Made by a program: the position numbers and the translations under genes. A DNA stretch of 49,052 bases, taken from positions 1 through 49,052 of the forward strand of contig NZ_LMAK01000009.1 in the NCBI RefSeq assembly GCF_001439665.1, in the 5' to 3' direction. Below, piece after piece: positions 12,921 through 49,052 of this stretch. The DNA is from Formosa algae (lineage in GTDB: Bacteria; Bacteroidota; Bacteroidia; Flavobacteriales; Flavobacteriaceae). The first letter of the stretch is position 1. The number at the start of each line of letters is the position of its first letter. The notes below the pieces were generated by a model that ran no database searches, was not told where the DNA came from, and was given only the letters and a program-made list of their open reading frames with translations.

Positions 12921-13739
12921 ATGTCTGCAGCACAAAAAGATTATAAAAAGGTCACAGTAAAAACATTAAGTGATATGAAAGCCCATGGAGAGAAAATTTC
13001 CATGCTTACAGCTTACGATTATACTATGGCTACAATTGTTGACGGTGCAGGCATAGATGTTATTCTTGTTGGCGATTCTGCCAGTAACGTTATGGCGGGT
13101 TACCAAACCACTTTACCTATTACATTAGACCAAATGATTTATCATGCATCGTCTGTGGTTCGTGGTGTAAGTCGTGCCTTAATTGTGGTCGATCTTCCTT
13201 TTGGTAGTTACCAGAGTGACCCTAAAGAAGCGTTACGTTCTGCCATACGAATTATGAAAGAAAGTGGAGCGCATTCTATAAAAGTAGAAGGTGGTAAAGA
13301 AATTAAAGAATCTATTAAGCGCATTTTAAATGCGGGAATTCCTGTAATGGGCCATTTAGGTTTAACACCACAATCTATCTATAAATTCGGAACTTTTACA
13401 GTGCGTGCTAAAGAAGAAGAAGAAGCTAAAAAATTAAAACAAGATGCATTAATGTTAGAAAAAGCAGGTTGTTTCGCTATTGTGCTTGAAAAAATTCCAG
13501 CAAAACTTGCTAAAGAAGTTGCCGAAAGTGTTAGTATTCCAGTTATTGGTATTGGAGCAGGAAATGGTGTAGACGGACAAGTTTTAGTTCTTCATGATAT
13601 GATTGGAATGACAAAGGAATTTCACCCGCGTTTTTTACGTCGTTATTTAAATTTATACGAAGATATGACTAAAGCATTATCTCAATACGTTACAGATGTT
13701 AAGGCTGTAGATTTCCCTAACGAAGACGAGCAGTATTAA
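12921..13739 (+). CDS. panB: 3-methyl-2-oxobutanoate hydroxymethyltransferase
   Basis: Catalyses the first committed step of pantothenate synthesis, adding a hydroxymethyl group from 5,10-methylene-THF to 2-oxoisovalerate to give ketopantoate. At 272 residues it has the family length. Diagnostic segments include [29 protein letters not shown] (Mg-binding Asp), [15 protein letters not shown] and [21 protein letters not shown]. It is separated from the MBOAT operon by 121 bases and from the next gene by 71 bases. The rest of the pantothenate pathway is not in the window. The ATG start is preceded by an A-rich leader. Confidence 0.97.
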
Positions 13740-13810: not shown

Positions 13811-14509
13811 GTGGCCGAAAAAATACTATCTAATAAAAACAATCTTCAGATTTTATTTGAAGACAACCATATTATTGTCGTTAATAAACGTGCTGGTGAT
13901 ATTGTTCAAGGTGATAGAACTGGAGACAAACCCTTAAGCGATATTGTAAAGGAATATATTAAGGATACCTACAACAAGCCTGGCAATGTATATTTAGGTG
14001 TAGTACATCGTTTAGATCGTCCCACTACAGGTCTGGTTATTTTTGCAAAGACAAGTAAAGCATTAACGCGTTTAAATGCCATGTTTGTAAAAAAAGATGT
14101 CACTAAAACCTATTGGGCCGTTGTAAATAATACGCCTCCAAAACAGCAAGACACTTTAATAAATTGGCTTAAGAAAAACCCGAAAAACAACAAGTCTACA
14201 GCCTACAATAAAGAAATAAAAGATAGCAAAAAAGCAATATTACATTATACGCTTATCAAGAAATTAGAGCGCTACGTCTTACTAGAAATTGCTTTAGAGA
14301 CTGGACGGCATCATCAAATTAGATGTCAGCTTTCCAATATAGGTTGTATTATAAAAGGCGATTTAAAATATGGTGCAGATCGCAGCAATAAAGATGCGAG
14401 TATACATTTACATGCCAGACATATTCAGTTTTTGCATCCGGTAACCAAAGCAGATATTCTTATCACTGCTCCGTTACCTAAAGATCCTCTTTGGGAAGCG
14501 TGTCTATAA
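13811..14509 (+). CDS. RluA-family RNA pseudouridine synthase
   Basis: Isomerises uridine to pseudouridine in rRNA or tRNA. The 232-residue protein has the RluA catalytic motif HRLDRPTTG with the nucleophilic Asp at residue 69. It also shows GRHHQIRCQL near residue 165 and a final HARHIQFLHPVT segment, all typical. No N-terminal S4 domain is present, so it is the short form and the exact target site is unclear. The start is GTG at 13811 (a Val-Ala-Glu-Lys beginning); no in-frame ATG lies nearby upstream. It ends one base before the stop codon of the convergent histidine kinase gene, leaving no room for a terminator between them. Confidence 0.92.
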   Translation: MAEKILSNKNNLQILFEDNHIIVVNKRAGDIVQGDRTGDKPLSDIVKEYIKDTYNKPGNVYLGVVHRLDRPTTGLVIFAKTSKALTRLNAMFVKKDVTKTYWAVVNNTPPKQQDTLINWLKKNPKNNKSTAYNKEIKDSKKAILHYTLIKKLERYVLLEIALETGRHHQIRCQLSNIGCIIKGDLKYGADRSNKDASIHLHARHIQFLHPVTKADILITAPLPKDPLWEACL

Positions 14510-14510
14510 T

Positions 14511-15338
14511 TTAATTAAAACGGTAACGGTATTTAATTTCAAGCTTAACTCCTTCTTTAAGTTGTGAAGTCATTTTAAAATCGGCATCTATAAGGGCTGC
14601 TCTACTCTTCATGTTTATTAACCCAGAACCGCGTTCAATTTCAGCTTCGTCAAATCCAATGCCATCATCTTCTGCTGTTATAATTACAAAATCGGGAGTA
14701 TAATTAATTTGAACGTCTAACAGCGAGGCCTGAGAATATTTAATAGTGTTTGAGAAAAACTCTTGTAAAATTCTAAACAAAATGATACTGTCCTTCCCTT
14801 TCTGTAATAATGCTTCATTTCCTGTTACTTTTAAACTGGCATTAATTAATCCTAGTTTATTAAAACGTTCTATTTCAGAATTAACAGATTCTTGCAATCC
14901 TCTGTATACAATTACATCACTATTTAAAGATTTGGACAGCGATCGTAATTCTTGTAAACTTTCCTTTACCAAATTTTTGCTTTCGGCAAAAGAATCCTGT
15001 AAATCTGGACGTACTTGATGTGCTAACATACTAAGTTGCATATTGGCTACAGATAATAATTGGCCAACATTATCGTGTAAATCCTGACCAATATTCATTA
15101 GTGTTTGTTCTTGAATTTCTATTTGTGTTTTCGCTATTTCTTCTTCAAAAATTTGCTGCTGTTTTAATTTTTCAACTAATAATTTATTTTTCCGTTTTTG
15201 AAACACTAAAAAAAACAAAATAAGTAAGCTTACTAATACGACTAAAACACCAATCATGTATAAAAAAAAATTCTGTTGAGCATCGATAACCATAACATTG
15301 GTTTCAATCTGCGGATCGCTTAGCAAAATTAGTATCAT
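14511..15338 (-). CDS. NarL/DesK-type sensor histidine kinase, cassette copy A
   Basis: A 275-residue kinase with one membrane helix (residues 26-46), a short coiled coil (50-80), a HisKA_3-type dimerisation domain with the phospho-acceptor His88 in GQDLHDNVGQ, and an ATPase domain. The ATPase domain has its N box at FFSNTIKYS (Asn197), G1 box DDGIGFD (224-230) and G2 box GSGLINM (237-243). There is no periplasmic sensor domain, so sensing probably depends on a partner, most plausibly the 7-TM protein encoded just upstream, whose stop overlaps this start by 4 bases (ATGA). Its cognate regulator, expected to be of the NarL/LuxR type, is not in the window. It is a close paralogue of the kinase at 17026-17838. 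Confidence 0.93.
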   Translation of the reverse strand: MILILLSDPQIETNVMVIDAQQNFFLYMIGVLVVLVSLLILFFLVFQKRKNKLLVEKLKQQQIFEEEIAKTQIEIQEQTLMNIGQDLHDNVGQLLSVANMQLSMLAHQVRPDLQDSFAESKNLVKESLQELRSLSKSLNSDVIVYRGLQESVNSEIERFNKLGLINASLKVTGNEALLQKGKDSIILFRILQEFFSNTIKYSQASLLDVQINYTPDFVIITAEDDGIGFDEAEIERGSGLINMKSRAALIDADFKMTSQLKEGVKLEIKYRYRFN

Positions 15339-16060
15339 GTGCGTAATGGTTTTTCTGGTTTACAAAATACCAATGCACAAGCATAAGCCCCGTACATGAG
15401 AATATTTGAAAATAGCCGGGTTAGTCTTAATAACTTGATATATTCTAAATTCTCTATTAACACAAACTTTTGATAGAAATAAAGTGGCATGGTAACAATC
15501 CACCAAAAGAATAAGCTCATACTAATATAGAAGTATATAGATTTGTAAAATGTTAATATGACATCGCTCTGCAATACATCGATAAAATAGAGCACAATTG
15601 CCAAGAGAATAATTACAGAACCAAACAGTTTATTAAACGTAGATACGGTGTAGAAAAATTCATCTATATAAATTAAGGTATAAATACTAACACAAATAAT
15701 AAAGGCATACGTACTAATATTTAAAATATTCCGATATGTTTTATTACTGATGATTTTTTGGAAGAAAAACGACCAAAACAGCACACTACCAATAGTCCAG
15801 AATAAACCATACCACCAATAGTTAGAATAAAAAAAGCGATACTTTAGTAGGTATTGATATTCTTCTAAAGCACCTCCTGGATGTAAATTTTTTAAGGTCG
15901 AACCACCTAATTCAACCAAAACAGAGTATAGCAGAAATAAGATAAAATATTGTATGGGTGTGTTTTTAAACTTTTTAAAAGATATAAGCCCCATTGCAAG
16001 AGCCAATAACTCTACACCTTTTGTAATATTTGGACGATGCGCAAGTAAAAAATCTATCAT
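15335..16060 (-). CDS. Seven-helix membrane protein of unknown function, cassette copy A
   Basis: 241 residues, almost entirely hydrophobic, with seven predictable membrane helices (about residues 12-28, 37-54, 81-104, 109-131, 141-163, 173-196, 213-232). I do not recognise a named family. Features shared with the copy B protein are a YF-LLY-E pattern in helix 2, NYWW/NFWW-LFW-GS before helix 3, VLQSD/MLQSE-FYK between helices 5 and 6, a T-PL-FY pattern ending helix 6, and N-MY with a Cys-x-Pro-Glu tail. Overlap with the kinase gene suggests the product is a membrane receptor or scaffold for a kinase lacking its own sensor. That function is inferred from context only. Confidence 0.85.
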   Translation of the reverse strand: MIDFLLAHRPNITKGVELLALAMGLISFKKFKNTPIQYFILFLLYSVLVELGGSTLKNLHPGGALEEYQYLLKYRFFYSNYWWYGLFWTIGSVLFWSFFFQKIISNKTYRNILNISTYAFIICVSIYTLIYIDEFFYTVSTFNKLFGSVIILLAIVLYFIDVLQSDVILTFYKSIYFYISMSLFFWWIVTMPLYFYQKFVLIENLEYIKLLRLTRLFSNILMYGAYACALVFCKPEKPLRT

Positions 16061-16078
16061 AAATTATAATTGTGTGTA

Positions 16079-16648
16079 TTAATTAGGATATTTACTTCCT
16101 GGCGGTTCACCTAAATCGCCTTCATTTAAAGGTGAGCCTCCTGGAACATCAGACGATTCTAAAACAACAGTAGAAGGCAACACACTTGCCTTAGACTTTG
16201 TAGTATTATAGGTAGGAACTAAAAACACCGTTGTATAATTGGCCTTACTTTTTAAGGTCTCTGTTTTAGAGTAAGCTCCTAAATACAGACGAATACCATT
16301 CATTTGATCTTTTCCTTTTAAGATTTGATCTGTTTCATACTTGGCATATTTAATATACTTCTCTAAAGTATCTAGAGAGAACCAAACCGAACGGTTGTCT
16401 TCCATTTGAATAGACTTACTAATTAGCTCGTATCGAGGCGTGTAATTATCTGATAGTTCTATGCCACGAGACTCAGAAATTAATCCTTTAGGTTTTTCTG
16501 GTATTTCTTCTCCTTTAGTAACACCTTGTTCTGGCGTCATTTTGTTTTTTAGTTCCTCTTTTTCCGAGTTCATTTCGTTTAACTGCATTAAATGCGAGCC
16601 CAGAACCCCCATTAGTATCCCGAATAATACATACGCTAATTTTTTCAT
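16079..16648 (-). CDS. Hypothetical membrane-anchored protein, cassette copy A
   Basis: 189 residues: one N-terminal membrane segment (residues 4-20), a charged coiled-coil-like stretch (24-50), then a globular domain shared with the protein at 18524-18949. Shared motifs are PKGLIS, R-LIS-SI, DNRS-W, YAK, GIR-Y-GAY, YTT-F--PT and a C-terminal pattern LN-G--G-PP---YP. I recognise no named domain. It is the first gene of copy A, 18 bases before the 7-TM gene. The membrane anchor suggests the domain sits on one face of the inner membrane near the 7-TM protein; the fairly hydrophilic, signal-anchor-like start makes the side ambiguous. Confidence 0.82.
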   Translation of the reverse strand: MKKLAYVLFGILMGVLGSHLMQLNEMNSEKEELKNKMTPEQGVTKGEEIPEKPKGLISESRGIELSDNYTPRYELISKSIQMEDNRSVWFSLDTLEKYIKYAKYETDQILKGKDQMNGIRLYLGAYSKTETLKSKANYTTVFLVPTYNTTKSKASVLPSTVVLESSDVPGGSPLNEGDLGEPPGSKYPN

Positions 16649-16694
16649 TGTGGTTAATTATTAGTTGTTAAGTGTTAGCAAGCTTCTGCACATA

Positions 16695-16722
16695 GTTATT
16701 ACTCTATTATTAGAGTAATAAC
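16695..16722. promoter_or_regulatory. Perfect 12-bp inverted repeat with 4-base loop
   Basis: GTTATTACTCTA (16695-16706), loop TTAT, TAGAGTAATAAC (16711-16722). It lies 47 bases upstream of the first gene of copy A. The symmetry and position suggest an operator or an attenuator hairpin; flanking sequence lacks the T run of a terminator on either strand. Confidence 0.6.
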
Positions 16723-16902
16723 AGGTTTTATTAATCTTCCTTCTTATAAATAAGAAAGTACTTAACGGTAGGTATAGATTTAATACATCTGGGTTGGAAT
16801 AGAAATAACGATATACATAAGTTAGAAATAGCTGACAAAAAAGAGTTCACTAGACATATTAAGTCATCATTACCTCATAAATATATGATTTTAAAATGAT
16901 TA

Positions 16903-16910
16903 CAAAAATA
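16903..16910 (-). promoter_or_regulatory. Candidate -7 box TATTTTTG for cassette copy A
   Basis: CAAAAATA on the plus strand reads TATTTTTG on the minus strand, an exact TAnnTTTG match. No TTG at the expected -33 spacing. AT-rich surroundings make chance occurrence possible. Confidence 0.35.
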
Positions 16911-17025
16911 AAAAATAAGACAACTTATGTTTTATTAAATAAAAAACATTTAAATATTGGAAATATTAATCTTTATCGTCTAATATATGCGATACTTAAA
17001 AGATATGTTGAAGTTCTGATCGTAC

Positions 17026-17838
17026 TTAATTGGAGTTTGTACGGTAGTAATATTTAATTTCTAGCTTTACACCTTCTTTGAGTTGAGATGTTATTTTAAA
17101 ATTTGCATCAATTAGTTCTGCTCTACTTTTCATATTTATTAAGCCCGAACCACGTTCTATTTGAGCGTCATCAAATCCAACACCATCATCTTCAGCAGTG
17201 ATAATCACAAAATCTGGAGTATAATTAATATGCACTTCTAGAAGTGAAGCTTCCGAATATTTAATGGTGTTCGAGAAAAATTCTTGTAATATTCTAAACA
17301 AGATGATGCTGTCTTTCCCTTTCTGAAATAAATTTTCGTCTCCAGTTATGTTTAATTTAGCATTAATTAATCCCAATTTATTAAAACGTTCAATTTCTGA
17401 ATTTACAGATTCTTGTAAACCTCTGTATACAATAACATCACTATTTAAAGATTTAGAAAGTGATCGCAATTCTTGTAGACTTTCTTTAACCAAATCTTTA
17501 CTTTCGGTAAAAGTATCTTGTAAATCTGAACTAACCTGACGCGCTAACATACTAAGTTGCATATTAGCTACAGATAATAACTGCCCTACGTTATCGTGTA
17601 AATCCTGACCAATATTTTTTAATGTCTGTTCTTGAATTTCAATTTGTGTTTTCGCTAGTTCTTCTTCAAAGGCTTGGCGCTGCTCAATTTTGTCTAATAA
17701 CAGTTTGTTTTTACGTTTTTGAAATACAATAAAGAACACAATAATGAGTGTACACACTATAAAGAGAACACCTATCATGTAAATTAATAAATACCTTTCG
17801 GCAGCTGTGCTTACTAACGGTTCTCCGGGTTGCACCAT
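17026..17838 (-). CDS. NarL/DesK-type sensor histidine kinase, cassette copy B
   Basis: A 270-residue paralogue of the kinase at 14511-15338. One membrane helix (residues 18-39), coiled coil, HisKA_3 domain with His81 in GQDLHDNVGQ, and an ATPase domain with FFSNTIKYS, DDGVGFD and GSGLINM boxes. From about residue 43 to the end it is roughly 85% identical to copy A, including an uninterrupted identical block of over 40 residues after the phospho-acceptor region, whereas the first 40 residues differ. It overlaps the 7-TM gene by 25 bases, so translation is coupled. No sensor domain and no adjacent response regulator are present. Confidence 0.93.
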   Translation of the reverse strand: MVQPGEPLVSTAAERYLLIYMIGVLFIVCTLIIVFFIVFQKRKNKLLLDKIEQRQAFEEELAKTQIEIQEQTLKNIGQDLHDNVGQLLSVANMQLSMLARQVSSDLQDTFTESKDLVKESLQELRSLSKSLNSDVIVYRGLQESVNSEIERFNKLGLINAKLNITGDENLFQKGKDSIILFRILQEFFSNTIKYSEASLLEVHINYTPDFVIITAEDDGVGFDDAQIERGSGLINMKSRAELIDANFKITSQLKEGVKLEIKYYYRTNSN

Positions 17839-18515
17839 AATAAAGAAAAACTAAAAGTTAAATACATGAATATATTGGCTAACAAAAATATTTGCCATTT
17901 TAAAATAATAAAATTCCAATCTGAAAGGGTAAAATATATGTCATAAAATATTAAAGGCGTAGTAATTAACAGCCACATAAATACAGTGGCACTAATGAAA
18001 AATAAAGAGCATTTATAAAAATTTATAATATCTTCTGACTGCAACATTTCATAAAAATACACACTCGCTAAGAATAAAATAATAAATTCTCCAAAAATTA
18101 AGATTGAGTTTGTAAAACTAGAAAAGAATTCATCTAAATTTAAGGCAATTGTCAATAGAGAAAATACGATAAACACTACAGCTAAAATTTTTATAAAGCT
18201 TTTTATTTTAGTCGATCTTATTAATTTCAAATAAAAAAACATATAAAACAAAGGGCTTCCAACACACCAAAATAAGGTACTCCACCAAAAATTTCTTCTA
18301 AGAACTGTATCATCTAAAAAACCTAAAACACCATTTTTAATCAAATAAGGATAAAGCGAAATCGTTTCGCAAATAAATATATATAGTAAAAAATAAATGA
18401 AATATTTTGCCGTAGTATTTTTGTATTTTTTATAACAAACTAATGCTGTTATAGCTGCAACAGCTTCTACCATTAAGCTTAAAATCCAATAGTAGTTTCT
18501 TAAAAACTCTTGCAT
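17814..18515 (-). CDS. Seven-helix membrane protein of unknown function, cassette copy B
   Basis: 233 residues with seven likely membrane helices. It is homologous along its whole length to the protein at 15335-16060 but only moderately similar (around 30% by eye). The best conserved parts are the KKYKNT loop after helix 1, NFWWSTLFW-GS before helix 3, the MLQSE-II-FYK loop, T-PLIFY at the end of helix 6, and NIFMY with a terminal Cys-Asn-Pro-Glu. It has no recognised enzymatic motif. The 25-base overlap with the kinase gene supports a joint complex. A receptor role is inference. Confidence 0.85.
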   Translation of the reverse strand: MQEFLRNYYWILSLMVEAVAAITALVCYKKYKNTTAKYFIYFLLYIFICETISLYPYLIKNGVLGFLDDTVLRRNFWWSTLFWCVGSPLFYMFFYLKLIRSTKIKSFIKILAVVFIVFSLLTIALNLDEFFSSFTNSILIFGEFIILFLASVYFYEMLQSEDIINFYKCSLFFISATVFMWLLITTPLIFYDIYFTLSDWNFIILKWQIFLLANIFMYLTFSFSLLWCNPENR

Positions 18516-18523
18516 ATTCTAAT

Positions 18524-18949
18524 CTATTGTGGGTAGTTTGCCTCTGGAGGATTACCTGTATTCCCCATATTAAGACCTTCACCATCGGGTATATCTTCAC
18601 TTTCTTCCGAAGTCGATATTAAACGTTTTGTTGAACGCTTTACAGATCTACCTGTAGGCATAATAAACATGGTAGTATAACCAGCTTCTCCGTTAATTTC
18701 TGGGTAAGCGCCTTCATAAATTCGGATGCCATCTAATGTATATCCTAAATCACTTGCTTGTTGTTTAGCATAAGCTAAAAATGTTTCAATCTCTTCCAAA
18801 GCATACCATGTAGAACGGTTATCTGCTCTTTTTAAAATAGAACTACTAATTAATTTATGCCTAGAGTCGAACGCTTGATCTAGGTTTTTAGCTTGTTCTG
18901 GAGTTATTAATCCTTTAGGTGCCTGTACTTTAGAAATCTCTTTACTCAT
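18524..18949 (-). CDS. Hypothetical soluble protein, cassette copy B
   Basis: 141 residues without a membrane anchor or signal peptide; an in-frame stop 18 bases upstream of the ATG rules out a longer form. It corresponds to the globular part of the 189-residue protein of copy A: PKGLITPEQ, R-KLISSSI, DNRSTWYALEEIE, YAKQQA, LDGIRIYEGAYP, AGYTTMFIMPT and a C-terminal GNPPEANYPQ. I know no named domain for this pattern. It is 8 bases upstream of its 7-TM partner. The loss of the anchor relative to copy A suggests that the domain works in the cytosol, or that copy A gained a tether. Confidence 0.82.
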   Translation of the reverse strand: MSKEISKVQAPKGLITPEQAKNLDQAFDSRHKLISSSILKRADNRSTWYALEEIETFLAYAKQQASDLGYTLDGIRIYEGAYPEINGEAGYTTMFIMPTGRSVKRSTKRLISTSEESEDIPDGEGLNMGNTGNPPEANYPQ

Positions 18950-19075: not shown

Positions 19076-19105
19076 AATTATAAGGTCCGGATTTACCTTA
19101 TAATT
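19076..19105. terminator. 11-bp inverted repeat overlapping the comM stop codon
   Basis: AATTATAAGGT (19076-19086) pairs perfectly with ACCTTATAATT (19095-19105) around an 8-base loop. The stop codon of comM (minus strand, 19104-19106) lies in the stem. No T run follows on the minus strand, so termination is uncertain. Confidence 0.5.
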
Positions 19106-20642
19106 AGCCTAACCAGCCGTCACGATCTAGACTTCTATATTGAATGGCTTCACTAATATGTGCACCTTTAACAGCTTCAGAATTTTCTAAATCGGCGATA
19201 GTTCTTGCTACTTTTAAAATCCTATCGTAGGCTCTAGCCGATAAATTTAAACGTTCCATCGCTGTTTTTAATAACAGTTTAGATGCCTCATCTAACTTAC
19301 AATAAGTCCGAATGTGTTTGGTATTCATTTGGGCATTATAATGTACATTTTCAAAATCTTTGAAACGTGTGGTTTGATGCGATCTTGCTTTAGTAACGCG
19401 CTCACGAATAGTTACCGAAGACTCCCCTTTTCGATCTTCAGAAAGTTTCTCGAAAGGTACAGGTGTAACCTCTATATGAATATCGATACGATCTAACAGT
19501 GGGCCTGAAATTTTTCCTAAATACCGTTGCATTTCTGCAGGTGAAGACGTAATTGGCGCATTAGGATCGTTAAAAAAACCACTCGGACTCGGATTCATGC
19601 TAGCGACTAACATAAAACTACTTGGATAAGTAACTGTGAATTTTGCTCTAGAAATGGTCACTTCCCGATCTTCTAACGGTTGCCGCATCACTTCTAAAAC
19701 ATCGCGTTTAAACTCTGGTAGTTCGTCTAAAAATAAGACACCGTTATGTGATAGAGAAATCTCACCAGGCTGCGGATAACTTCCGCCACCAACAAGTGCT
19801 ACATTGGAAATCGTATGGTGCGGACTTCTAAACGGACGTTGAGACATTAATCCTAAATGGGCTTTTACGCGTCCAACAACTGAATGAATTTTTGTGGTTT
19901 CTAAAGCTTCATGCAAGGTCATTGGTGGTAAAATAGAAGGTAAACGTTTTGCTAGCATGGTTTTTCCTGATCCAGGCGGGCCAATTAAAATAATATTATG
20001 TCCGCCAGCTGCGGCAATTTCCATACAGCGTTTAATGCTTTCTTGTCCTTTTACATCTGCAAAATCAAACTCAGGAAAATCTAAATTTTTATAAAACTCT
20101 TCTCGAGTATTGATTATGGTTTGCTCTAATGCTTTTCCTTCTTTAAAAAAATCGATCACTTCTTTAATAGACTCTATGCCAAACACCTTTAAATCGTTCA
20201 CAATAGCGGCTTCTTTTGCATTTTGAGCTGGTAAAATAAAACCTTTAAAACCTTCTTCTCTTGCTTTTAAAGCAATAGGCAAAGCACCTTTTATGGGCTG
20301 AAGTGTACCATCTAAAGACAATTCGCCCATAATTATATAGTCTTCTAAATCTTCTGCTGGAATTTGTTTGGTCGCAGCAAGAATTCCTAATGCTAAAGTT
20401 AAATCGTATGCAGAACCTTCCTTACGTAAATCTGCAGGCGACATATTTATTATAATTTTCTTCCCTGGAATTTTATAGCCATTATTTTGAAGGGCCGCGG
20501 CTATCCTAAAGTTACTTTCTTTAATGGCGTTGTCTGGCAATCCAACCAAATGATATCCAATTCCTGAATCGACATTCACTTCAACCATAATGGTTGTTGC
20601 ATCTACACCAAAGACTGCGCTTCCAAATACTTTTTTAAGCAT
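19104..20642 (-). CDS. comM: YifB/ComM-family Mg-chelatase-like AAA+ ATPase
   Basis: 512 residues, the family length. The N-terminal lonC-like domain (about 1-170) opens with LKKVFGSAVFGVDA, and the AAA+ domain carries Walker A GPPGSGKT (221-228), SPHHTISNVALVGGG, and Walker B VLFLDELPEF. A C-terminal Mg-chelatase domain ends with the RAYDRILKVARTIADLE segment. ComM proteins are hexameric helicases that promote branch migration during integration of incoming DNA in naturally competent bacteria; the family is also widespread in species not known to be competent. ATG start. It is 81 bases downstream of tilS on the same strand. An imperfect dyad (20646-20656 with 20672-20682) sits in its leader. 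Confidence 0.95.
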   Translation of the reverse strand: MLKKVFGSAVFGVDATTIMVEVNVDSGIGYHLVGLPDNAIKESNFRIAAALQNNGYKIPGKKIIINMSPADLRKEGSAYDLTLALGILAATKQIPAEDLEDYIIMGELSLDGTLQPIKGALPIALKAREEGFKGFILPAQNAKEAAIVNDLKVFGIESIKEVIDFFKEGKALEQTIINTREEFYKNLDFPEFDFADVKGQESIKRCMEIAAAGGHNIILIGPPGSGKTMLAKRLPSILPPMTLHEALETTKIHSVVGRVKAHLGLMSQRPFRSPHHTISNVALVGGGSYPQPGEISLSHNGVLFLDELPEFKRDVLEVMRQPLEDREVTISRAKFTVTYPSSFMLVASMNPSPSGFFNDPNAPITSSPAEMQRYLGKISGPLLDRIDIHIEVTPVPFEKLSEDRKGESSVTIRERVTKARSHQTTRFKDFENVHYNAQMNTKHIRTYCKLDEASKLLLKTAMERLNLSARAYDRILKVARTIADLENSEAVKGAHISEAIQYRSLDRDGWLG

Positions 20643-44991: not shown

Positions 44992-46119
44992 TTATTCTAA
45001 TAAACTAATATCTGCTGCACCTTTAATTTCAGTTGATAATTCGCCTAACCAACCTAAATCTGCTTGCACTCCAGTTTGAATTTTAATAAAATCGATTCCG
45101 CTTAAATCAACGGCTTCACCTGCTTCATTAATAGCATCTGCAATATCTATAGCATCTCCGCCACTAGTATTGTCGGCATACCCATAATCAAATGCTAAAC
45201 TTTTTACAAAAGAAGGATTACTTAAATCTACGTTCTCGTCAGATAAAAGTGTTCCTGAAACGCTATAAGAATCTTCTGTTATCCATGCTGGAAAATAAGC
45301 TTGACTATGGAATGCATTCTTTTTTACTATGCCAGTAGCACCTTCACTATCTTCCCAAGACACATCATCGTCATCTGTTGCGGGTTTAAAATATGTTATA
45401 CTATAATTACGACTTGTGCCTTCTAAATCGTGACCACTTCCTTTAATTTCATACCAAGTGTCGTCGGCAATTCCATTCGCATTTTCATCTTGCATCACCC
45501 AAATAATTCCTGGTTCAGCGGCACTAGAAAATGCATTTCCATACACTATAAAATCTGTATCATCTGCAGCATTTAAAACTGTATGATCAAAACTTAAAGT
45601 TATAGAACCACCCCAAGCGCCTAAACTCACCAAACCACTACTACCTCCTACTACAGTTGCTGCACCAATATCATTTCCTAAATTTGTATTAATAAATTGA
45701 CCAGGACCTGGCACATAATCTATTAACTCTGAAATGTATGCCGTACTAGTAGTAGTGGTTGGACGAATGTAAGCATCAACAGTAATATCGTAATTGAAGG
45801 TAAAATCGCCACTTGCATTATAAGCGTGATATGTTAATTGATATGCTCCAGAAGTTTCTGGAACAAAACTGTAAATCGTTTCTGAAGACACTAAGCTGTC
45901 TCCAAGGCTCCATTCTGTAATATAATCGTCGTCGTTTAAATTATAAGATTCAAAAGACTTGGTGTCTCCCATAGTCATTTCTATCGCTTGATTAGTTACA
46001 GAAAGTTCTATTTCTGGAGCTTGTAATGCATCATCGTCATTAGAACACGATAGAGATAGCACGCTACAGCCAATTAATAAAGCTACTTTGTTTGTTGTTA
46101 AGTAATGTAATGTTTTCAT
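44992..46119 (-). CDS. Surface lipoprotein with a PKD-like domain, corrinoid-locus type
   Basis: 375 residues. Signal peptide with a lipobox ending at Cys25, followed by Ser-Asn-Asp-Asp-Asp, an acidic stretch like those that direct Bacteroidota lipoproteins to the cell surface. Residues about 35-115 resemble a PKD/Ig-like fold (GAYQLTYHAYNASGDFTFNYDITV). The rest is a beta-rich domain with VPGPGQFIN, LGAWGGSITLSFDH, FIVYGNAFSS and DDTWYEIKGSGH. Such proteins occur beside BtuB and BtuG-like genes in Bacteroidota. It is the third gene of the minus-strand unit, 20 bases after the propeller gene. A role in corrinoid capture is inferred from context. Confidence 0.85.
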   Translation of the reverse strand: MKTLHYLTTNKVALLIGCSVLSLSCSNDDDALQAPEIELSVTNQAIEMTMGDTKSFESYNLNDDDYITEWSLGDSLVSSETIYSFVPETSGAYQLTYHAYNASGDFTFNYDITVDAYIRPTTTTSTAYISELIDYVPGPGQFINTNLGNDIGAATVVGGSSGLVSLGAWGGSITLSFDHTVLNAADDTDFIVYGNAFSSAAEPGIIWVMQDENANGIADDTWYEIKGSGHDLEGTSRNYSITYFKPATDDDDVSWEDSEGATGIVKKNAFHSQAYFPAWITEDSYSVSGTLLSDENVDLSNPSFVKSLAFDYGYADNTSGGDAIDIADAINEAGEAVDLSGIDFIKIQTGVQADLGWLGELSTEIKGAADISLLE

Positions 46120-46139
46120 TGTCTTCTTCTATTTTTAAT

Positions 46140-47276
46140 TTATTCTGGTTGATATACAAATTGAATTTTGGCAGGAATATCGCCTGTTACCACCTTCCAC
46201 TTAAACTCTCCGTCTGAATCGAAACAATACAAATCGCCTGGCGACACGTAATCTTTAGCATCGGTGATATAAATATCTTCGGTATCTGGATTTATGGCAA
46301 TACCATAAGGAATTTGAATAAGATCTTCGTTCCCTTCGGCTATAAAAGAGTCGTCTAAAATAGTTTCTGTTGTGGTATCTAGCTTATTGTAAGAGATTAC
46401 ATTTTCTCCTGTAAAATAATTAAAAGCGGTACTGTAGATATAGGCGATATCATTATGAATAGTCATATTACTAACAGCCAAATCGAATTCTTTTTTAACT
46501 GTTTCTGTAGCTGTATCTATAACGTATAGTTTTGAAGGTGTTTCAAAATAATCTCCTCGAGAAGACACATATAAATCGCCTTCACTATCAATCTTTAATC
46601 GGTGTAGATTTATGGCAACCTCTATACGATTGGTTTCTGTAAAACTTTCGATATCGATAACCGAGATGGTAGATTCGTAATCTGGCGGACTATAACCACC
46701 TGAATTGGCCACATATATTTTATTATTATAAGCCACTAATTCTTCGGGTTGGCGTCCCACATCTACTCTACGAGTTATGCTTAAGCTTGTGGTATCTATT
46801 TCGTGTACCTGACCTTCGGTTGCACTATAATCTCCAATTTCTCCCAAGTAAGTACTTAAATACGCTTTGCCATTATAAAACGTAATATAGCGGCAATTAT
46901 TAACGTCTATTTGCTTTAGTTTAACGCCGGTTTCGGCATCTAAAACCTCAACTTTATTAGATGCATTTACAACCACATACATTTTGGATCCATATATACC
47001 AATATCATTTCCGACATCGCCTAAACCACCAACTTCTAAAGGATTTGCTGATGTAAAACGATCGTGAGTATATTCTCCAGTTTCAAAATCCATATAATCT
47101 AGGGATGCTTTGTTCATAGACATATTCCCTTCATTTAAAAGATAAAATCCTTTTAAAACATTCTCTGTATCGGGTTCTGCAGGTTGTTGTGTATCCTCAT
47201 CTACTGTAATTGGATCGTCAGACCTGCAGGAAAAAAAGAATAAAAGTGACGCTAGAATAAGTACTTGTTTTTTCAT
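46140..47276 (-). CDS. YncE/BtuG-like beta-propeller lipoprotein
   Basis: 378 residues. Lipobox ending at Cys17 (LLFFFSC) with Arg-Ser-Asp-Asp after it, then a low-complexity linker (about 20-40). The body is made of repeated propeller blades with the pattern of YVTN/YncE proteins, for example KVEVLDAETG, HEIDTTSLSITRRVDVG, PEELVAYNNKIYVANSGG, STISVIDIESF and KLYVIDTATETV. In Bacteroides, BtuG propellers sit on top of BtuB and bind vitamin B12 with very high affinity; the neighbouring TonB receptor here supports the same role, without proving the ligand. 18 bases separate it from the receptor gene. Confidence 0.88.
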   Translation of the reverse strand: MKKQVLILASLLFFFSCRSDDPITVDEDTQQPAEPDTENVLKGFYLLNEGNMSMNKASLDYMDFETGEYTHDRFTSANPLEVGGLGDVGNDIGIYGSKMYVVVNASNKVEVLDAETGVKLKQIDVNNCRYITFYNGKAYLSTYLGEIGDYSATEGQVHEIDTTSLSITRRVDVGRQPEELVAYNNKIYVANSGGYSPPDYESTISVIDIESFTETNRIEVAINLHRLKIDSEGDLYVSSRGDYFETPSKLYVIDTATETVKKEFDLAVSNMTIHNDIAYIYSTAFNYFTGENVISYNKLDTTTETILDDSFIAEGNEDLIQIPYGIAINPDTEDIYITDAKDYVSPGDLYCFDSDGEFKWKVVTGDIPAKIQFVYQPE

Positions 47277-47294
47277 AAGTATGCATTAAAAAAT

Positions 47295-49052
47295 TTAAAG
47301 TTTATAATTGAGTGTAAATCGATATGAGCGACCTGGCATGGGAAAATTCTTGATCACAGCGTATTGCTGATCTAAAACATTATTAACTTCTAGACCAAAT
47401 TGGAGTGATTTTTTAAATAAACGCAGGTTATAGTTTGCAGATAAATCGTGTGTATACCAAGGCTCTAAATAATTAGAATTTATATTGGCTTTCTGGCTAT
47501 AGCGTCCACCTGTATAAATAAAACTATAGTTGAATTTAAAATCTTTAAACATGGCCATAACCGTGGCACTTCCGCTATGTAATGGAATGTATGGAATTTG
47601 GTCGCCGTACGTATTACTGTCTGGCGTAACATCTATAGCTTCTTGGTAAGTGTAGTTTACCTTTGAAGTTAGGTTGAATTGATTGGATAATTTGAAAGAC
47701 GATTTTAAACCAACTTCTAGCCCAGTGGTTTCAACAGTATCTAAATTTAGCATGGTCCACCTAAACAAATTTGTTCCTGGTACGGCGACTATTTTATCTG
47801 TAATCCAGATTTTATACACATCTGCTTGAACTTCAAAAAAAGACTGTTGTTTAGCATGTTGGTATGAAAACCCAAAATTTATTTGCTCTGAATATTCTGG
47901 TTTTAAATACGTATTTCCTACAAAAGTGTAATACAAATCATTAAAAGTGGGCATTCTAAAACTGTTTTTATAAAAAGCACGCAGTCTTAGATCGGGAGTT
48001 TTTAAAGGTTGTACATTTACCATTACAGAAGGTGTAAATTCCTGGAGATCGTCTGCTGTATCGTAAGCCTCTACCGTTTCATTTACAGTAGTACTTAACA
48101 CACTTAACTGCACGTTTAAACCTTTAAAATAAAGATTACTCGCCAAGGCATTTAGCATAGAAAAACGCTTAGGGTAAGCAAAACGATACAAATTAGCATC
48201 TAATGTATTTTCCTCAAAATCTGATGCTAATGAGATCTCCCAAAATGGTTTTATTTTTAAGGTATTTACAACAGAAGCATAATACGTCTTCTGAAAATAT
48301 TTATTATCCAATATCCCATCTAAAGACACAATTTCGGGATCGACATAACGTGAGTGATCGCTAGCATATTTTCCTCGAATAACAAAGAAATAGGAGTCGT
48401 TCACTTTGTGTTTAAACTCGCCTTGTATAAAATTATTCTGATCCCAAAGCCGTTGTGGTCTACTAAACACATTAGCCACTATAGCTCCGGGCAGTCCGCG
48501 TTCTGAATCGAAATGGTAATATTTTATATGCCAACTGCTTTTACCTGATGGGTTGCCATATAAAGCGGCCTCTACGCGATACGATTTAATGTCTGCATTT
48601 TCGCGAACCGCAGTTGTATCGTAACTTCCGTTGGTGTATTGAAATTCATATTCACCATCTGCAGATACCATCTCTGCACTTACTCGGGCTGCAATATTAT
48701 CGTTAAGTTTATAGTCTACAGCGAGTGACGGATTAAATAAGCCGAAAGATCCTGTTTTAACAGTAGCTTCTGCTTCATAATTTTTAAGATTGGAAAACTT
48801 TGGTGTTTTAGACTTTAAATACATTGTATTGGCCGAAGCATAACCGTTAGCAGACTGGTCTAAATCTGTACGTTGCCCTTGGTACAGACTTATTTCCTCC
48901 ATATTATTTAAGGAATATTTCCCTAAATCTACTTGGCCGTTTTGCGCATTTCCTAAGCGCACACCGTCATAAAACACAGCAGTATGTTGCGAGCCCATAC
49001 TCCTAATGTTAACCGTTTTTAAACCGCCAACACCGCCATAATCTTTAAGCTG
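47295..49052 (-). CDS. TonB-dependent outer membrane receptor, BtuB-like (5' end outside window)
   Basis: The 3' part of an outer-membrane receptor. The frame stays open to the window end; the first visible residues (QLKDYGGVGGLKTVNIRSMG) belong to the plug domain, so the start codon lies beyond base 49052 and the ATG at 48998 is internal. The visible part covers the end of the plug (FYDGVRLGNAQNGQ, VDLGKY, the Tyr-Gln-Gly-Gln motif) and a beta-barrel with alternating aromatic strands, including FRMPTFNDLYYTF and a C-terminal GRSYRFTLNYKL strand. With BtuG-like and PKD lipoproteins downstream it fits a corrinoid uptake receptor. Any B12 riboswitch would lie outside the window. Confidence 0.92.
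   Translation of the reverse strand, partial: QLKDYGGVGGLKTVNIRSMGSQHTAVFYDGVRLGNAQNGQVDLGKYSLNNMEEISLYQGQRTDLDQSANGYASANTMYLKSKTPKFSNLKNYEAEATVKTGSFGLFNPSLAVDYKLNDNIAARVSAEMVSADGEYEFQYTNGSYDTTAVRENADIKSYRVEAALYGNPSGKSSWHIKYYHFDSERGLPGAIVANVFSRPQRLWDQNNFIQGEFKHKVNDSYFFVIRGKYASDHSRYVDPEIVSLDGILDNKYFQKTYYASVVNTLKIKPFWEISLASDFEENTLDANLYRFAYPKRFSMLNALASNLYFKGLNVQLSVLSTTVNETVEAYDTADDLQEFTPSVMVNVQPLKTPDLRLRAFYKNSFRMPTFNDLYYTFVGNTYLKPEYSEQINFGFSYQHAKQQSFFEVQADVYKIWITDKIVAVPGTNLFRWTMLNLDTVETTGLEVGLKSSFKLSNQFNLTSKVNYTYQEAIDVTPDSNTYGDQIPYIPLHSGSATVMAMFKDFKFNYSFIYTGGRYSQKANINSNYLEPWYTHDLSANYNLRLFKKSLQFGLEVNNVLDQQYAVIKNFPMPGRSYRFTLNYKL

Follow-up and report, generated by a model that had tools for sequence, protein, structure and literature searches.

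Two tandem small protein-7TM-kinase cassettes in Formosa algae

We analyzed a 49,052-nucleotide stretch of Formosa algae DNA (contig NZ_LMAK01000009.1, positions 1 to 49,052; hereafter the window). At 14511-18949, its minus strand carries two head-to-tail cassettes, each coding in order for a small protein, a seven-transmembrane (7TM) protein and a one-helix histidine kinase with a HisKA_3 domain. Copy B is the first in transcription order, followed by copy A. The six genes are as follows (aa, amino acids).

18524..18949, minus strand: small protein, copy B; 141 aa, leaderless; predicted structure model m068818e5c49c
17814..18515, minus strand: 7TM protein, copy B; 233 aa; predicted structure model m9ee5e77037eb
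17026..17838, minus strand: HisKA_3 histidine kinase, copy B; 270 aa, one helix
16079..16648, minus strand: small protein, copy A; 189 aa, N-terminal hydrophobic anchor
15335..16060, minus strand: 7TM protein, copy A; 241 aa
14511..15338, minus strand: HisKA_3 histidine kinase, copy A; 275 aa, one helix

The small and 7TM genes are separated by 8 bases in copy B and 18 bases in copy A, and the 7TM and kinase genes overlap by 25 and 4 bases, respectively. A preliminary description, made from the sequence alone, had reported the same order and couplings in both copies, and all six open reading frames (ORFs) were found as described there. It had also stated correctly that no response regulator adjoins the cassettes at this locus; the gene next downstream is a 232-aa ORF on the opposite strand. 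In pairwise comparison, copies A and B are 41% identical in the small protein, 36% in the 7TM protein and 79% in the kinase. A profile search of the own genome detected just two small-protein genes, both within the window, and the order recurs in all 26 regions fetched from relatives, indicating that the pattern shared by A and B is not due to chance.

A HisKA_3 kinase and two unnamed protein families

Kinases A and B matched HisKA_3 with 46.5 and 47.6 bits (Pfam cut-off 24) and HATPase_c with 33.6 and 33.9 bits (cut-off 26.4), and no other Pfam family was above its cut-off in either. Hydropathy showed one strong hydrophobic helix per kinase, confirming the earlier view of a kinase with one helix and no sensor domain. 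The phosphoacceptor histidine and the N/G-box residues were invariant in the alignment of cassette kinases. With both domains above cut-off, the cassette kinase is a HisKA_3 (NarL/LiaS-type) two-component kinase.

The predicted structure of the copy B 7TM protein has seven helices, while a plain hydropathy count gave 3 for A and 5 for B. Its loop charges fit an N-out/C-in orientation. The preliminary description could not match the small protein to a named domain, and this held for the 7TM protein as well: no Pfam or NCBIfam family fits either window protein, and when 49 small and 38 7TM relatives were scanned singly, no Pfam family was matched by more than one member of either set. In NCBIfam, up to 4 of the 49 small proteins weakly touched lipoprotein-type models. 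One of the 38 7TM proteins matched DUF6064 and is probably a false member of the set; L184, which we presumed to be this hit, was left out of the 7TM profile used for profile comparison.

7TMR-DISM (PF07695) and HisKA_7TM (PF16927) are seven-helix parts of bacterial signalling proteins. No Pfam match to either was found among the 38 7TM members, and a profile search of the window genome detected no member of either family. Profile comparison with hhalign gave 12.2 (best, E 0.0024), 2.9 and 0.4% against 7TMR-DISM (22 of 25 fetched loci used) and 0.5-1.7% against HisKA_7TM (14 of 20 used), compared with 99.5% between near and distant members of the 7TM family, so that membership in both was rejected. 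Unlike the free-standing cassette protein, matches to these two families above cut-off sit in open frames of 455-980 aa and are therefore probably fused to output domains.

The motif pattern shared by small proteins A and B (DNRS-W, GIR-Y-GAY, YTT-F--PT, G-PP---YP), pointed out in the preliminary description, turned out to be family-wide in the alignment of relatives. Conservation, scored over those rows that have a residue at the position, is among the highest at the tail residues G132, P134, P135, Y139 and P140. The model of small protein B has a folded core with a mean predicted local distance difference test (pLDDT) score of 85. Residues 131-141 were modelled with low confidence (pLDDT 54-67), and for this reason the C-terminal tail (G.PP...YP) is perhaps flexible. 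The N-terminal hydrophobic stretch is indeed present in A and absent in B, but this difference is not peculiar to the pair, because the family comprises anchored, lipoprotein-like and leaderless forms; many members have lipobox-like or anchored N-termini, and anchored and leaderless genes were found within one operon in L199, L200, L204, L214 and L229. Short small-protein ORFs of 87-92 aa, without the N-terminal half and with the tail kept, were observed in input arrays of L233, L239 and L243; they are either shortened functional forms or decaying copies.

The cassette recurs as a unit

Recurrence was examined in a near set of 59 genomes (own included), in 395 genomes drawn across the phylum (window included), and in 66 named loci obtained by a profile scan of contigs from Gelidibacter, Winogradskyella, Bizionia, Mangrovimonas, Xanthomarina, Formosa and others. 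Some named loci belong to genomes of the first set; six recognized as identical were dropped in the distance analysis. Kinase and regulator counts in the phylum set rest on profiles built for this analysis.

In the near set, the small-protein profile matched 23 of 59 genomes, with 27 places outside the window. All 26 regions fetched for these places showed the order small-7TM-kinase, and 12 had a regulator added, in 2 cases a LytTR regulator with a His_kinase-type kinase. In the phylum set, the small-protein profile matched 54 places in 39 genomes, all within the class of the window (taken as Bacteroidia), and the 7TM profile matched 81 places in 56 genomes, two of them outside the class. Each of the 54 small-protein places was followed by a same-strand 7TM place within 1080 bases. 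The kinase nearby was of HisKA_3 type at 49 places and of LytS type at 1, with none in range at 4; the regulator was of NarL type at 40 and LytTR at 1. Among the 81 7TM places, 53 had a small match upstream, 70 a kinase downstream and 56 a regulator downstream. The named loci contained the 7TM gene in 65 and the kinase in 63 of 66 cases, and the three incomplete loci, L210, L233 and L248, run into the end of the contig or of the locus. Thus, in the search proposed with the preliminary description, the small protein was never apart from the 7TM protein and was accompanied by a kinase at 50 of 54 places, but the 7TM family is wider, with 28 of 81 matches lacking a small match upstream; in most of these cases, a different gene on the same strand occupies that position. 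L104, L106 and L112 carry kinase-less small-7TM pairs (once with two 7TM genes) at one shared site, next to genes that we take to be rho and rpsT. A locus outside the class, L174 (2368-5871), carries a short ORF, a 7TM gene, a second short ORF, a further ORF and a longer kinase, with a GIRMY motif in one of the short ORFs.

At 7TM-kinase loci without a small match, the gene directly upstream is usually a short same-strand ORF. Several of these ORFs end in sequences resembling the family tail: NGKLCPPDKTC (L163), DFGQGCCPPQ (L169) and NDGVKCPPTCQF (L175). Against a profile of 121 small proteins, the ORFs of L175 and L163 scored 91%, L166 49%, L171 18%, L181 13% and L167 7%, followed by L185, L168 and L173 with 2.5-4.5% and by L165, L169, L176, L177 and both ORFs of L178 with 0.1-1.6%. 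Random controls numbered 25 and by chance included the test ORFs of L171 and L181; the 23 true controls all scored below 2%. The upstream gene of L170 looks unrelated to the small family. The scoring ORFs suggest that the small family is wider than the search profile.

We considered whether the genes are merely co-inherited at the level of the locus and form no single signalling unit. Downstream neighbours are in fact kept in relatives of the window: of 61 single-copy loci, 50 carry a gene like the window ORF 12921-13739, presumably panB-like, and 55 one like the ORF 13811-14509, presumably rluA-like. However, 50 of 71 regions lack the flanking genes of the window (12921-13739, 13811-14509 and 19104-20642), and 46 of these 50 still carry small, 7TM and kinase genes. 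Since the same inputs are also carried by two different kinase-regulator classes, as described below, a coincidental operon is highly implausible.

A fourth gene, the response regulator

Of the 45 regions retrieved for phylum hits, 36 have a regulator directly after the cassette kinase, a count that leaves out L130, where the regulator belongs to a different kinase. A regulator was absent from all 66 named loci of the window's relatives, suggesting that its absence is a trait of the window's clade. Because a regulator lies downstream at 41 of the 54 phylum places, the full system appears to be a four-gene operon; the three-gene unit of the preliminary description is correct for the window and incomplete for the class.

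In L046, L048 and L101, the same small and 7TM families precede a His_kinase (PF06580, LytS-type) kinase and a LytTR regulator. The expectation that the families co-occur with the HisKA_3 kinase type therefore held with few exceptions, but the type is not fixed, and the input block travels together.

In the window genome, the best match as a regulator candidate was an orphan NarL-type gene, G000:C41. An orphan NarL-type regulator of 223 aa without an adjacent kinase was noted at L257 (1483-2154), 70-75% identical in three other genomes of the genus.

Input genes are exchanged and multiplied ahead of a conserved kinase core

Within the genus of the window, 7TM protein A shares 68% identity with the only copy in genome G002, and 7TM protein B 59-65% with the single copies in G003, G001 and G005; in this comparison A and B share 34%, against 79% for their kinases. 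Likewise, small protein B is 69% identical to the single copy of G003 and small protein A 53% to that of G002. In the 7TM tree, A grouped with G002 with starred support of 100, far from copy B. This 7TM tree is in conflict with the kinase-core tree, both being quick trees. Window copies A and B with G002 and G003 form a starred clade in the kinase-core tree, and this clade was rejected for the 7TM protein (p value of the approximately unbiased test, p-AU, 0.0014). Constraining the 7TM tree to the kinase clade was also rejected for three Bizionia (p-AU 0.0015) and for the genus (0.010).

Abrupt changes of identity were visible in pairs of loci. L194 and L202, from two named species, are 95% identical until shortly after the first 7TM gene ends, beyond which identity falls to 72-79%. 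Bizionia L220 and L223 are 88% identical through the small gene, cannot be aligned over most of the 7TM gene, and are then 84% identical. Several inputs may precede one kinase, as in the L225 array (SM-7TM-SM-7TM-7TM-7TM-kinase; SM, small protein). More than one small or 7TM ORF was counted in 19 of 66 named loci, including L232, whose two 7TM ORFs look like a single gene broken into two frames.

Averaged over all pairs of 45 single-copy loci, the distance was 1.46 for the 7TM protein, 0.80 for the small protein, 0.71 for the kinase core, and 0.30 and 0.14 for flanking genes. The 7TM gene is thus the fastest-evolving part, exchanged or multiplied ahead of a conserved kinase core. Distances of the 7TM protein correlated with those of the kinase (partial r 0.41, p 0.0005), while those of the small and 7TM proteins were uncorrelated (partial r 0.04, p 0.28), in a test weakened by near-saturated 7TM distances. 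The lack of co-divergence argues against a private ligand-receptor pair.

These distances also bear on the possibility that the small protein is the sensor, as a periplasmic or surface ligand-binding lipoprotein, or a cytoplasmic protein if leaderless, and the 7TM protein a mere transducer. The folded core, the many lipobox-like or anchored N-termini and the position of the gene upstream of the 7TM gene in 54 of 54 places would suit such a sensor, but the small protein changes at a lower rate than the 7TM protein, leaderless members exist, and some 7TM-kinase loci have no recognizable small gene. We consider this explanation unlikely.

Comparison with known systems

Beyond having a HisKA_3 two-component kinase, the cassette corresponds to none of the multi-part systems compared. 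In UhpC-UhpB-UhpA of E. coli, a HisKA_3 kinase and a NarL-type regulator receive their signal from a separate membrane receptor. The cassette resembles it in the HisKA_3 kinase and in the separate membrane receptor proposed here, but its kinases scored only 73.1 and 80.3 bits on the UhpB model, far under the equivalog cut-off of 408 bits. UhpC, a homologue of transporters, has 12 helices, and to our knowledge UhpABC has no small protein and no receptor arrays. In LiaFSR, too, a kinase and a regulator are accompanied by an accessory protein. Its accessory families differ from those of the cassette, whose kinases reached 70.8 and 74.9 bits on the LiaS equivalog model (cut-off 450).

As the consulted sections of one article describe it, ComQXPA combines a HisKA_3 kinase (PF07730), a response regulator and a small protein encoded upstream (PMC4008528), and shares with the cassette a variable input and a conserved kinase part. 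According to the same sections, ComP bears its own membrane sensor part, and ComQXPA has no separate 7TM gene, whereas the cassette kinase has one helix and the 7TM protein is a separate gene. ComX is described there as a precursor of 52-73 residues that is most variable at the C-terminus (PMC4008528), unlike the conserved tail of the cassette small protein.

In a comparable pherotype-like scheme for the cassette, similar to Bacillus ComX-ComP, the small protein or its tail would be secreted or displayed as a signal and matched by the 7TM protein as its receptor. Such a scheme would account for input genes that are highly variable relative to the kinase core and for distinct input types occupying one site across related species. 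In their first 25 aligned codons, kinases A and B share 36% of residues, compared with 76-100% in codons 51-150, and ComP likewise has a variable N-terminal membrane part and a conserved cytoplasmic part in the sections consulted (PMC4008528). However, small and 7TM distances are uncorrelated while 7TM and kinase distances correlate (with the saturation noted above), the tail, as the most plausible signal, is conserved, the small gene stays alike in Bizionia L220 and L223 where most of the 7TM gene is no longer alignable, and leaderless small proteins have no known export route. A pherotype-like role is therefore quite improbable.

A proposed split-sensor two-component system

We propose that the cassette is a split-sensor two-component system, with the 7TM protein as receptor, the small protein as accessory, and swappable inputs placed before a conserved kinase core; we put the probability of this reading at roughly 0.7. 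Oriented N-out/C-in within the inner membrane, the 7TM protein would recognize the stimulus and relay it laterally, within a putative physical complex, to the single membrane helix of the sensorless HisKA_3 kinase. The kinase would then phosphorylate a NarL-type regulator, encoded by the neighbouring gene in most loci of the class and, for the window's clade, presumably at another site. The small protein would be an accessory subunit whose conserved tail may dock on a constant part of the complex. Duplication and recombination of input units ahead of the kinase core, a probable source of the conflict between the trees, would retune what the pathway senses.

The preliminary description had named both the 7TM and the small protein as candidates for input. 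The 7TM protein is the natural receptor candidate because it evolves fastest, is exchanged and multiplied, and mostly lies beside a kinase; the small protein is read as its companion with a conserved tail. The idea of a modular, duplicated and possibly undescribed receptor system stood in that the unit is modular and recurring and both families are unnamed, and no description of a small-7TM-kinase unit was present among the matches listed in open-licence PubMed Central full texts; it was modified in that the system is four-gene in the class and its kinase type is not fixed.

Several observations weigh against the split-sensor reading. The regulator of the window genome was not found, and no more than 4 of the 6 genus genomes contain the best orphan candidate. 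No kinase match was in range of 11 of the 81 7TM matches, and small-7TM pairs lie without a nearby kinase in 3 of 45 phylum regions (L104, L106, L112). Leaderless small proteins, such as that of window copy B and many others, should be cytoplasmic, whereas anchored or lipoprotein-like ones face outwards, so that a single docking site for all is not simple. The 7TM protein could also be a regulator or a transporter-like partner instead of a receptor.

A broader version of the split-sensor reading, which we offer tentatively, is a repertoire of free-standing 7TM receptors resembling G-protein-coupled receptors, each with a small constant-tailed co-receptor and all acting on a common kinase. Its specificity would be diversified by duplication and by recombinational input swaps at a fixed locus, sometimes onto another kinase class. 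Many bacterial kinases have no recognizable sensor, and for one kinase group the likely missing input can now be named: a rapidly evolving 7TM protein, encoded separately and accompanied by a small one. The loci offer a set of naturally occurring input swaps before a shared kinase, usable for ligand finding, and two unnamed protein families would become annotatable across the class.

Other features of the window

One further feature lies between the two cassettes, in the 377-base gap, 46 bases before copy A.

16695..16722, minus strand: inverted repeat; perfect, 12 bp, 4-base loop

The RNA folding z-score of 16649-16760 is -4.07, with more than one hairpin in this segment, and no T run follows the repeat. 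The repeat may lie outside the receptor system. Elsewhere in the window, a TonB-dependent receptor, a DUF5074 protein and an ORF without a Pfam match (E 1e-5) stand in one row on the minus strand at 44992-48998, perhaps an uptake locus.

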